Assembly: GCA_022652815.1 (NCBI GenBank)
Contig: JALCRR010000001.1
Coordinates: 1 to 64,000 of the forward strand
Direction of reading: 5' to 3'
DNA length: 64,000 nucleotides
From: Oscillibacter sp.
Lineage (GTDB): Bacteria > Bacillota > Clostridia > Oscillospirales > Oscillospiraceae
A program made the translations under genes and the position numbers. The notes beneath the pieces were generated by a model. That model did no database searches. It saw nothing but the letters and a program-made list of their open reading frames with translations, and was not told the origin of the DNA. Positions 32,605 through 50,885 of the stretch are shown piece by piece (the first letter of the stretch is position 1; every line of letters begins with the position of its first letter).

Positions 32605-32870
32605 ACAAAAAAAGCCCTATCCCAATATCATTGGGACAAGACTTCCATCCTGCGGTACCACCCAAGTTGACGCGATTGCGCCCGCTCGTTTCAGAGAACC
32701 AACATTCTCTGCCGCGCTGGTAACGGGTGCGGCTCCCGTCAGACACTACTTGCCCTGCGGCTTTCGTTCTGCCCTCACAAGTCCATTCACCGGAAAGTCC
32801 TCTGCCGTGATCCCACCATCCACAGCTCTCTGAAAGGTTGCCCAACCGGATACTACTCTTGCTCAGCGGT
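32605..32870 (-). promoter_or_regulatory. T-box leader (tryptophan, specifier UGG)
   Basis: Minus strand has GAGTAGTA, CAGAGAGC, GTGAA-TGG-AC (specifier at 32783-32785), GGGTGGTACCGCAGG antiterminator and terminator AGTCTTGTCCCAAT-gat-ATTGGGATAGGGCTTTTTTT. Confidence 0.92.
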
Positions 32871-32892
32871 TTGTTTTGTTTGATTGTTTTGC

Positions 32893-33044: not shown

Positions 33045-33839
33045 TCAAGACAGCAGGACGGAATCGGTTTCTTCCTGCACACCGGCAACCTCGGCAAACT
33101 TTTGCAGCAGGTCGGCCTTGGTGAGCTTCTTTTTCTCCTCACCCTCGATGTCCAGAATGATGCGTCCCTCGTTCATCATGATGATGCGGTTGCCGTGGGC
33201 AATCGCGTCTTTCATGTTGTGGGTAATCATCATGGCGGTGAGGCCGTTTTCCTGCACGATGGTGTCGGACAGCTCCAGCACCTTGGCGGCAGTGGCGGGG
33301 TCCAGTGCGGCGGTGTGCTCGTCCAGAAGCAGAAGCTTCGGCTTTTGCAGCGCCGCCATTAAAAGCGTCAGCGCTTGACGCTGACCGCCGGAGAGCAGAC
33401 CGACCTTGCTGGTCATGCGATCCTCAAGCCCCAGACCCAGCGTCTTGAGCTTCTCGCGGTAGAGCGTGCGCTCCGCCTTGGTGACGCCCCAGCCCAGACC
33501 CCGCTTTTTGCCGCGGCGATAGGCCAGTGCCAGATTTTCCTCGATCTGCATATTGGGCGCAGTACCCATCATGGGGTCTTGAAACACGCGGCCGATGAGC
33601 CGTGCCCGCTGATATTCGGCGAGGCCGGTCACATCCTCGCCGTCGATGACGATGGAGCCGCTGTCTACCGGCCACACGCCGGCAACCGCATTGAGCATGG
33701 TGGATTTGCCGGCGCCGTTGCCACCGATCACGGTAACAAAATCGCCCTCCTTCAAGTGCAGATTCAGATTGACGAGGGCTTTCTTTTCGTTGATGGTGCC
33801 GGGGTTGAACGTCTTGGAGACGTGATTGATGTCAAGCAT
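33045..33839 (-). CDS. ABC transporter ATP-binding protein (TrpXYZ-type operon 2)
   Basis: IGGNGAGKSTMLNAVAG, LSGGQRQALTLLMA, LLLDEHTAALDPATA. Confidence 0.92.
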   Translation of the reverse strand: MLDINHVSKTFNPGTINEKKALVNLNLHLKEGDFVTVIGGNGAGKSTMLNAVAGVWPVDSGSIVIDGEDVTGLAEYQRARLIGRVFQDPMMGTAPNMQIEENLALAYRRGKKRGLGWGVTKAERTLYREKLKTLGLGLEDRMTSKVGLLSGGQRQALTLLMAALQKPKLLLLDEHTAALDPATAAKVLELSDTIVQENGLTAMMITHNMKDAIAHGNRIIMMNEGRIILDIEGEEKKKLTKADLLQKFAEVAGVQEETDSVLLS

Positions 33840-34809
33840 GAGTGGTTCCCTCCTCTTTCAGCGCAGCTTTTCCGGCTTGGCGGAAGGAGCTTTTGGCCTG
33901 CTTTTGCAGATACGGAACGGCCAGGAAAACGGCAACCACTGCGGCGGTGAAGAGCTTCAAATCGTTGGAGGGCAGCCGCAGCCACAGCACCACGCCCACG
34001 ACGACGTAGTACACGATGCCACCGATGACCAAGAAGATCAGACGGGTGGAGAAGCTGGAGCCCTTTCGGAAGAATGCGTCGCACAGCGTCTCGCCGATGA
34101 TGACGGCGGCGAGGCCGATGACGATGGAGCCGCGGCCCATGTTGATGTCGGAAAATCCTTGATACTGGGCCATCAGACCGCCGGAGAGCGCCACCAGGGC
34201 GTTGGAAATGGCAAGGCCTAATACTTTCATGGAGTTGATGTTGATACCCTGCGCCCGGGACATGGCGGGGTTGGAGCCGGTGGCGCGGATGGCGGAGCCT
34301 TGCTCCGTGCCGAAGTACCAGTACAAAACGGCAATGATGACCGCTGCAGCCACAGCGCCCACGATGATGGCCTTGGGCACATGGCGCAGGGAAATCAGCA
34401 GCGCGTACTGATCCGGATTCACGGACTTGTTGGCGGCGCCCTTCCAGCCGCCCATGATGTGCAGGTTGACGGAGTACAGGGCGAACTGGGTCAGAATGCC
34501 GGCCAGAATGGCCGGAATGCCCAGCTTGGTGTGCAGCAGACCGGTGACAAGACCGGCCAGCAGTCCGGCGACGATGGCAACCAACAGCGCTGCCCATGCG
34601 GGGCAGCCCATCAAAATCAGCGTGACGGTGACCGCACCGCCGGTGGTGAAGGAACCGTCCACCGTCAGATCGGCGATGTCCAAAAGTCGGAAGGTAATGT
34701 AAACGCCCAGAGCCATCAGGCCCCAGACAATGCCCTGCGCCACGCTGCCGGGAATCCCTTTAATTAGGTTGGCCGGATTCAGTGACGCGAAATATGCGGC
34801 AATACTCAT
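33832..34809 (-). CDS. ABC transporter permease (TrpXYZ-type operon 2)
   Basis: AQGIVWGLMALGVYITFRLLDIADLTVDGSFTTGGAV; paralogue of 30358..31242. Confidence 0.9.
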   Translation of the reverse strand: MSIAAYFASLNPANLIKGIPGSVAQGIVWGLMALGVYITFRLLDIADLTVDGSFTTGGAVTVTLILMGCPAWAALLVAIVAGLLAGLVTGLLHTKLGIPAILAGILTQFALYSVNLHIMGGWKGAANKSVNPDQYALLISLRHVPKAIIVGAVAAAVIIAVLYWYFGTEQGSAIRATGSNPAMSRAQGININSMKVLGLAISNALVALSGGLMAQYQGFSDINMGRGSIVIGLAAVIIGETLCDAFFRKGSSFSTRLIFLVIGGIVYYVVVGVVLWLRLPSNDLKLFTAAVVAVFLAVPYLQKQAKSSFRQAGKAALKEEGTTHA

Positions 34810-34957
34810 GGTGTCCTCTCCTTTTGCGTTGTTTCTTCGGTCGGGGACAGGGGAACGGGTCTCGGAACCCCGTTCCCCCAACCCCGAAGGGCTGGGGATA
34901 ATCAGCAGGGGAAACGCCGTCCGAGCGGCGTTCCCCCTACATAATTACAAGGGAAGC

Positions 34958-35965
34958 TTAGGCGGCAATGGCCACATAGTCGCTGGGAGGCGTGATGCCC
35001 AGAGCGGCGCAGATGGTCTCGTTGTACTCCTTGGTGAACTGGGGAGCAAACTGAATGTCCATCGTGGCGGGGTCAGCGCCGTTCACCAGAATCTCGTATG
35101 CCATCTCGCCGGTGGCATAGCCCAGATCATAGTAGCTGATAGAGAGAGTCGCCACGCCGCAGCCGGAGCAGATGCCTTCCTCACCGGCAACAATGGGGAT
35201 GCCGGCGGGCTGGGCAACGTTGTTGATGGCCTCGGCGCAGGAGGCGGCGGTGTTGTCAGTGGGGATGTACAGCACTTCGTTTTCGCCGCAGGCGGTGGTG
35301 GTGACGGCGGCAACGTCGTTGGAGTCAGAGAACGCATAGGCGGTCACGGTGTAGCCCGCATCCTCCAGGAACGGAGTGATGGTCTCCACTTGATAGGCGG
35401 AGTTGGCCTCGGCGGAGCAGTACAGAATGCCCACGGTCTTGGCGTCGGGGAACAGCTCCTTGATCATGCTGGCCTGACCGTCCAGGGGAGCAAGGTCAGA
35501 GGTGCCGGAGATGTTGGTGCCGGTGGCGCCGGTCCAGCCGGAGATGCTCAGCGCGGAGCCGTAATCGGTGACGGAGGTGCCCAGAATGGGGGTTTCGCTG
35601 GTGGCGGCGGCAGCGGCTTGCAGGGCGGGTGTTGCGTTGGCCATAATTAGGTCGTCTCCACTGGAGACGAAGCCGTTGCAGATGGTGGCGCAGGTGGCGG
35701 AATCGCCGGCAGCGTTCTGCTCGTCAAAGGTCACGCTGTCACCCAGCTTTTTGGTCAGAGCGTCCTTAAAGCCCTGGGTTGCGGCGTCCAGAGCCGGATG
35801 CTGAACCAGCTGGCAGATGCCGACGGTGTAGCTTTCGCCGGAAGCGGCTGCGCTGGCGGAGGCGGATGCGCCGGCAGATGCGGCGGGAGCGGAGCTGGAG
35901 CCGCAGGCTGCCAGACTCAGAGCCATACAGGCTGCCAGAAGGGTTGCAAGAATCTTCTTTTTCAT
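34958..35965 (-). CDS. ABC transporter substrate-binding lipoprotein (operon 2)
   Basis: Lipobox LAACGSSSAP, YTVGICQLVQHPALDAATQGFKDAL; ABC_sub_bind-type. Confidence 0.9.
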   Translation of the reverse strand: MKKKILATLLAACMALSLAACGSSSAPAASAGASASASAAASGESYTVGICQLVQHPALDAATQGFKDALTKKLGDSVTFDEQNAAGDSATCATICNGFVSSGDDLIMANATPALQAAAAATSETPILGTSVTDYGSALSISGWTGATGTNISGTSDLAPLDGQASMIKELFPDAKTVGILYCSAEANSAYQVETITPFLEDAGYTVTAYAFSDSNDVAAVTTTACGENEVLYIPTDNTAASCAEAINNVAQPAGIPIVAGEEGICSGCGVATLSISYYDLGYATGEMAYEILVNGADPATMDIQFAPQFTKEYNETICAALGITPPSDYVAIAA

Positions 35966-36013
35966 GGTGACAATCTCCTTTTAAAAATGATTTTTCATTT
36001 GAAAGCATATTAT

Positions 36014-36046
36014 AAAAAGCGGCTCTGTCCGAAAGAACAGAGCCGC
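36014..36046 (-). terminator. Intrinsic terminator upstream of operon 2 (candidate attenuator)
   Basis: Minus strand GCGGCTCTGT-tctttcgg-ACAGAGCCGC followed by TTTTT. Confidence 0.85.
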
Positions 36047-36076
36047 CTTCCATACAAAATGTTCAGCGTGTCCCGG

Positions 36077-36193
36077 TCATTCAGCCAGCCCTGTGCATTT
36101 CCCGTTCAAGGTACGGTAATAACGGCCCGCAAAGCGGACCTGCATAAAGGCGTAATAGGAGGACAGCCCATGAACGATCTGATTCTTTGCCAT
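36077..36193 (-). CDS. Putative 38-aa leader peptide MAKNQIVHGLSSYYAFMQVRFAGRYYRTLNGKCTGLAE
   Basis: ATG preceded by AAGGAGGAACACATC; YY pairs at 13-14 and 25-26; followed 30 nt later by the intrinsic terminator. Confidence 0.6.
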   Translation of the reverse strand: MAKNQIVHGLSSYYAFMQVRFAGRYYRTLNGKCTGLAE

Positions 36194-36438
36194 GATGTGT
36201 TCCTCCTTCTGCCTTTTGGCTGAATGCGGTAAAAACCGCGCTTGATTTACTTTTACAGCATAAAGCTTTAAAGCCATAAATTCAACCGTCAAATTACACA
36301 AAAACTTTTCTTCATTCTCCGCCTTCTGGCAAAAAAGCGCGAAAAAAGAATCGCAAGCTCCTGCAAAGACCCTCTTTTTCCCAGTGGGCAGTTTGCCAGA
36401 AGGCTGTGAATTCCCTGGAAAAACCACGCCGCCAAGAA

Positions 36439-50594: not shown

Positions 50595-50885
50595 GGATTC
50601 CCGGCAACCCCAGAGAAACAAAAAGACTTCCGCCGCTCCTGTTCCTCAGGAGAGACGAAAGCCGGACTTCCGTGGTACCACTCTCATTGCCGCGAAAATA
50701 CGGCCACTCGTGTGCCGGCTGTATCGGGCGGCTCCCGGTCCGGCCTACTAAAAGGAAAATCCCTTTTTCGGCGGACTGCTCCCGGGCCAGCTCCTGTGGA
50801 CCAATTCTGCCGCCTTGCACCGTCCGGCGGCTCTCTGAAAGAATCTGCTTCCACGGATTTCCCGTTCATCGCATGAACAAGTATT
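50595..50885 (-). promoter_or_regulatory. T-box leader of ilvE (probable Leu, CUG specifier)
   Basis: Minus strand CAGAGAGCC, GAGAGTGGTACCACGGAAG, terminator CTTTCGTCTCTCCTG-aggaa-CAGGAGCGGCGGAAGTCTTTTT; candidate specifier GAG-CTG-G at 50788-50790. Confidence 0.88.

Follow-up and report, generated by a model that had tools for sequence, protein, structure and literature searches.

The enteric attenuators trpL, pheL and hisL are built alike, each with a short open reading frame (ORF) led by a Shine-Dalgarno (SD) sequence, control codons, RNA segments that pair as 1:2, 2:3 and 3:4, a terminator and a downstream amino acid gene; in trpL, the stop codon falls between segments 1 and 2. T-boxes are the amino acid sensors usually ascribed to Firmicutes, and Bacillus subtilis is said to transcribe well ahead of its ribosomes, a mode in which leader-peptide attenuation would be unlikely. 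His leader peptides have been reported in Firmicutes (PMC2965389, PMC9413887), as has a Leu-rich leader of Staphylococcus aureus ilv (PMC5794164), and the uORFC-13-1 motif of Acholeplasma aroF, for which 24 examples are known by prediction only, includes a Phe-codon leader ORF (PMC8632094). Within the partial body of papers that we consulted, no report of a Tyr/Phe leader family was found.

We analyzed a 64,000-nucleotide stretch of Oscillibacter DNA (the window), in which the second of two adjacent paralogous ABC operons is preceded by such a leader. On the evidence of sequence comparison, this leader is very probably a ribosome-mediated attenuator that responds to the charging of tRNA-Tyr as well as tRNA-Phe and governs a predicted aromatic ABC importer. 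In sequence it has the parts of the enteric attenuators, the antiterminator (2:3) among them as a candidate, whereas its family lies in a different phylum, would control an importer and mixes Tyr with Phe. It resembles uORFC-13-1 in that a predicted leader ORF with Phe codons is followed by a terminator and then an aromatic gene, but the two differ in taxon, gene and RNA, and uORFC-13-1 carries Phe only. With the Firmicutes His and Leu leaders, compared here by description, it would share leader-peptide attenuation, applied there to other amino acids and genes. A T-box (RF00230), such as the one before operon 1, would be its counterpart in sensing tRNA charging and in acting on a terminator, that of the adjoining paralogous operon, but a T-box binds tRNA directly and involves no translation.

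Promoter, ORF and terminator of the leader

The locus is read from the minus strand; a divergent CTP synthase gene flanks it on one side and the ABC operon on the other. A sigma-70-type promoter, TTGAAT-N17-TATGCT (36257–36285; TTGAAT at 36285–36280, TATGCT at 36262–36257, spacer of 17 nt), is followed by the SD sequence AAGGAGG (36202–36208), a leader ORF of 38 aa, MAKNQIVHGLSSYYAFMQVRFAGRYYRTLNGKCTGLAE (36077–36193, stop included), and an intrinsic terminator (36014–36046), identified by terminator scan and alignment, with a perfect 10-bp stem (36046–36037/36028–36019) and a U5 tract (36018–36014). The gene for the substrate-binding protein SBP2 starts at 35965, so that an SD-led short ORF stands between promoter and structural gene, with an intrinsic terminator before the latter. 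When checked on the minus strand, all of these elements were where an earlier reading of the letters alone (the sequence-only reading) had placed them.

The terminator ranked strongest of the 13 in the 6 kb scanned (20 counted pairs), and the leader region folded much more stably than its shuffles (z = −5.2). No Rfam family matched the leader, and the T-box covariance model, which matched the window at 32629–32875 and 50648–50878 only, had no match in it, in line with the prior statement that operon 2 has no visible T-box. Upstream of the SBP2 gene, the consensus TTGACT-N17-TATRNT was kept in 61 promoters, leader present or absent. A palindrome, CTTTAAAG (36266–36273, minus strand), was observed within the promoter spacer; across the 61 promoters, the TTTAAAG columns held 1.76 to 2.00 bits versus 0.5 to 0.9 bits in adjoining spacer columns, and the palindrome is possibly part of an operator or of an extended promoter.

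Distribution of the leader

A plain protein search with the leader ORF returned several weak but syntenic matches. Among 86 Oscillibacter and Dysosmobacter genomes, a peptide profile built from six leaders found the ORF, in the same place, in 34, and a covariance model found the leader in 41 at E <= 1.6e-8. The window leader was among the training sequences of both models; its E value of 2.4e-17 against the peptide profile is thus that of a training member, as is its share in the RNA model matches, which stood at about 1e-24 per genome. Homologues also occurred in scattered Clostridia outside the genus.

A DNA pattern composed of the hairpin described below and the terminator arm, and blind to the downstream gene, was run over about 85,000 genomes. 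It yielded 33 stretches, from Oscillibacter, Dysosmobacter, other Clostridia and one Chloroflexi contig, and 32 of them lay directly upstream of an SBP2 orthologue. The Chloroflexi stretch (L052) had no SBP and was discarded as a chance pattern match. Also rejected were four chance peptide matches (L004, L005, L009 and L010) and a group in which the RNA model had matched terminators only (L113, L115–L121 and L142–L147).

In the homologues, reading frame, promoter, terminator and SD sequence (AGGAG-type in nearly all those listed) were kept, together with the peptide core [YF]xFx[KQE]VRxAG; the peptide outside the core was variable, and the ORF varied in its start, its stop and its N- and C-terminal parts. 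Orthologues without the leader retained the promoter and were without both ORF and terminator, indicating that the module is lost as a unit. Four loci (L210–L213) had no leader ORF and a terminator right behind the promoter, which counts against leader-peptide attenuation, and one (L133) had a decayed leader ORF; a leader ORF without a terminator was not seen among the variants examined.

A near-invariant hairpin and fixed aromatic codons

Within the ORF, segment 1 (GGUCCGC, 36134–36140, minus strand) and segment 2 (GCGGGCC, 36124–36130, minus strand) are the 5′ and 3′ arms of a hairpin, 1:2. In an alignment of 36 leaders, the hairpin GGUCCGC-NNN-GCGGGCC was invariant, synonymous positions included, an invariance partly due to the selection of sequences by pattern, though 30 of the 36 were peptide-profile finds. 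Pairing was kept in L099, which has GGCCCGC instead of GGUCCGC, and in L108–L110 and L112 (CGUCCGC/GCGGGCG), and L134 and L135 had the hairpin with larger loops. In every leader the hairpin was in frame with the ORF, and the amino acid coded by its loop varied among Phe, Tyr, Cys, Leu and Pro. Since the synonymous sites of the hairpin are invariant while the loop amino acid is variable, the constraint acts on the RNA.

Codons were then counted back from the hairpin over 41 leaders. Codon −5 was Tyr or Phe in all 41 (21 Tyr, 20 Phe), and codon −3 was aromatic in 35 (85%; 34 Phe). The aromatic share was 63% at codon −6, 41% at codon −4 and at most 2% at codons −1, −2 and −7. In the window, the cluster comprises Tyr13 (−6), Tyr14 (−5), Ala15 and Phe16 (−3), at 36146–36157 on the minus strand, and control codons are thus conserved beside segment 1. 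Tyr and Phe occurred together in the cluster of 36 of the 41 leaders, and Trp in none. The sequence-only reading had proposed control by Tyr or by aromatic amino acids; these counts agree with aromatic control, and Tyr alone is too narrow. A fixed hairpin and fixed aromatic codons, with the rest of the peptide drifting, argue for selection on RNA and codons, not on the protein.

Unlike trpL, the ORF in this family extends 14–59 nt past segment 2, so that hairpin 1:2 must re-form behind the ribosome. As a separate observation, a C-R-U-R motif was kept 8 to about 11 nt past hairpin 1:2 in the window (CGTA at 36115–36112) and in homologues. Its spacing is that of a hairpin-stabilized polymerase pause; alternatively, it could pair with the UAUG before segment 3.

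Proposed alternative pairing of the terminator arm

The terminator 5′ arm, segment 3 (GCGGCUC, 36040–36046, minus strand), is the proposed partner of segment 2. It read GCGG[CU][CU]C in 35 of 36 leaders, and can pair both with segment 4 and with GGGCC(GUU) of segment 2. GGGCCG or GAGCCG is common to segments 2 and 4, and GG[CU][CU]C to segments 1 and 3, an arrangement also found in classical attenuators. In the terminator stem, 98% of the cells of the 36-leader alignment were paired, and four pairs had changes on both sides.

For the 2:3 pairing, GGGCC of segment 2 was fully pairable with segment 3 in 35 of 36 leaders. Under a scheme of 10+5 pairs, 87% of cells were paired versus 43 to 51% when the strands were slid, and the core held at least 7 of 10 pairs in every row, with 9 or 10 in 21 rows. 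Covariation was weak, as 15, 404, 44, 465 and 22 of 500 shuffles reached the five measures, and native 2:3 duplex energies were no better than those of permuted pairs, segment 2 being invariant. A segment 2 constrained by two partners would be expected to covary little, and we do not offer the covariation as proof. For the antiterminator named in the sequence-only reading, ACAGGGCU, it was absent.

Folding with ribosome masks

To model the switch, RNA running from the predicted start through segment 3 was folded under ribosome masks whose footprint reached +16 relative to the P site. The results depend on the amount of 5′ RNA included, and the run with the whole 5′ RNA is conservative relative to those with shortened RNA. 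Hairpin 1:2 was held at 0.89 without a ribosome and at 0.96 with the A site at codon −5, and it opened to 0.31 at codon −4 and 0.03 at codon −3. A ribosome stalled at codon −5 stands at the hairpin foot, short of segment 1, and its +16 footprint would leave the hairpin closed.

In the window leader, placing Phe16 in the A site opened hairpin 1:2, and the pairing of segment 3 with segment 2 reached 0.86, compared with 0.00 when no ribosome was present; stalls at Tyr13, Tyr14, Tyr25 and Tyr26 gave 0.00 to 0.01. Across the family, the antiterminator exceeded 0.5 at codon −3 in 6 of 36 leaders versus 6 of 144 controls (whole 5′ RNA). With only 6 of 36 leaders above this value, the support that equilibrium folding gives to the switch direction is not strong.

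The operon downstream of the leader

The operon encodes, on the minus strand, SBP2 (34958–35965), a PF04392 protein that is TrpX-like (below the NCBIfam cut-off), an ABC permease (33832–34878) and an ABC ATPase (33045–33839), the last two assigned from ORFs and domain searches. The closest solved structure to SBP2 is 6hni, Clostridioides difficile CD0873, which was shown to bind Tyr via Glu263, with Tyr279 in its pocket (PMC6816091). In our alignment, Glu and Tyr at these positions were kept in SBP2 and its leader-bearing orthologues. SBP1 of operon 1 has the same pocket Glu, so that an aromatic ligand is supported but Tyr and Trp are not separated; a pocket rule for Tyr versus Trp was discarded on the same ground. 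From its sequence, the operon is predicted to encode an aromatic amino acid importer, probably for Tyr.

Upstream of operon 1, the T-box (RF00230, 32629–32875) has UGG at the specifier position, and a T-box preceded the operon-1 orthologue in five of six neighboring-species loci. These findings support the Trp control that had been proposed for operon 1. By Rfam, a second T-box leader is present in the window at 50648–50878 (minus strand).

Leaders of the same build elsewhere

Outside the genus, aromatic leaders found with the RNA model preceded TrpX-like SBPs in other Clostridia, as well as pheA (bifunctional chorismate mutase/prephenate dehydratase; L107), a TrpB2-like gene (L111) and a DUF554 gene (L105). 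On one contig, two Phe-rich leaders about 240 bases apart (L227 and L230), each with a terminator, stood in tandem before the phenylacetate-CoA ligase gene paaK. The RNA model scores aromatic-coding sequence, so the aromatic bias of this set is built in, but the match with gene function is not, and the downstream genes do correspond to the amino acids of the control codons (TrpX-like SBP; pheA and PaaK in relatives). The pheA of the genus itself was considered as a leader target and rejected, as it lies behind a coding sequence that reads as aroC-like and has no leader.

Found through their terminator region, Ile/Leu/Val-codon leaders with a similar terminator lay directly upstream of a gene for a LivK-type branched-chain amino acid binding protein in four genus genomes (L148, L149, L225 and L226), and another (L132) lay at a contig end in the genome of the window (G000:C65:38-198, minus strand). 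These five share the core ILDAI..ASIII, in which GGACGCC...GGCGTCC makes an ORF-internal hairpin. An Ile/Leu/Val-rich frame with a terminator was also seen upstream of ilvB (acetolactate synthase large subunit; L229) in another Clostridium, from a different family of the class. The chances seem to us evenly balanced that Clostridia hold a sizeable set of unannotated attenuators, aromatic (TrpX-like ABC, pheA, TrpB2-like, PaaK) and branched-chain (livK, ilvB), in which a cassette of codons, ORF-internal hairpin and terminator stands in for T-boxes and needs close coupling of transcription and translation in these leaders.

Discussion

From the arrangement and conservation of these parts, we infer that the leader ORF is translated and that its ribosome reports on Tyr and Phe. 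When both amino acids are ample, or when there is no translation, hairpin 1:2 would form or re-form, segments 3 and 4 would pair and the polymerase would stop. A shortage of Tyr or of Phe would stall the ribosome in the aromatic cluster just before the hairpin, where it would cover segment 1, most clearly at codon −3. Segment 2, extended by GUU and now free, would pair with segment 3 instead (2:3), and transcription would run on into the operon. Leader-peptide transcription attenuation of an aromatic ABC operon, the central proposal of the sequence-only reading, is well supported.

The details of that proposal fare differently. Read as Tyr-only control, it places the stall at Tyr25-Tyr26, with ACAGGGCU (36094–36087) as the antiterminator. 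This segment can indeed form the eight pairs described in the window, and in L017 and L034 the complementarity at this site spans 11 nt, but the pairing is not generally conserved: the longest complementary stretch between ORF tail and terminator 5′ arm averaged 6.5 nt versus 6.1 in shuffles. Tyr25-Tyr26 is often absent as well, the position commonly being Phe-Glu in homologues, and the conserved cluster is the one that reads Tyr13-Tyr14-Ala-Phe16 in the window; and because the site lies 3′ of segment 2, a ribosome there would mask that segment, and the model yields no antiterminator. We hold this version to be most unlikely, and neither Tyr25-Tyr26 nor the ACAGGGCU pairing is confirmed as a working part.

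The peptide itself might be the sensor: just as TnaC responds to Trp, it would stall its ribosome on free Tyr or Phe. In favor of this, the core F-x-[KQE]-V-R-x-A-G is kept at the peptide level and codon −1 is Lys, Gln or Glu in 40 of 41 leaders. The conserved residues, however, overlap an RNA hairpin whose synonymous sites are fixed too, the loop residue ranges from Phe to Pro and the aromatic window swaps Tyr and Phe freely, and a surplus of an amino acid that induced its importer would act in the wrong direction, which makes such sensing very unlikely. If the ORF were incidental and hairpin 1:2 the receptor of a riboswitch-like RNA binding a metabolite or protein, the invariance of the hairpin over 36 sequences would be explained, but not why it is always in frame in an SD-led ORF with aromatic codons at fixed positions; moreover, nothing in Rfam matches, and a 7-bp hairpin with a variable 3-nt loop is small for a receptor, so that we regard this reading as highly improbable. 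An ordinary small protein gene with its own terminator would fit the good SD sequence and start, yet length, N-terminus and C-terminus are variable, no Pfam family is matched, and the ORF occurs with a terminator and before aromatic genes (once DUF554) and was not encountered as a conserved small protein of the ordinary kind outside the setting of ABC operons; we judge this to be extremely unlikely. Attenuation by a ribosome stalled at Tyr and Phe codons thus stays the preferred explanation.

The mechanism is a classic one that has rarely been reported in the bacterial group of the gut Clostridium relatives. That the family is kept through a gut genus and recurs in other Clostridia suggests that, in some of these organisms, ribosome and polymerase move in step, at least in the leader. 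The adjacent paralogous operons, one with a Trp T-box and the other with a Tyr/Phe leader, make a natural pair for comparing the two modes of sensing, and the leader offers a handle on Tyr and Phe uptake by gut anaerobes.
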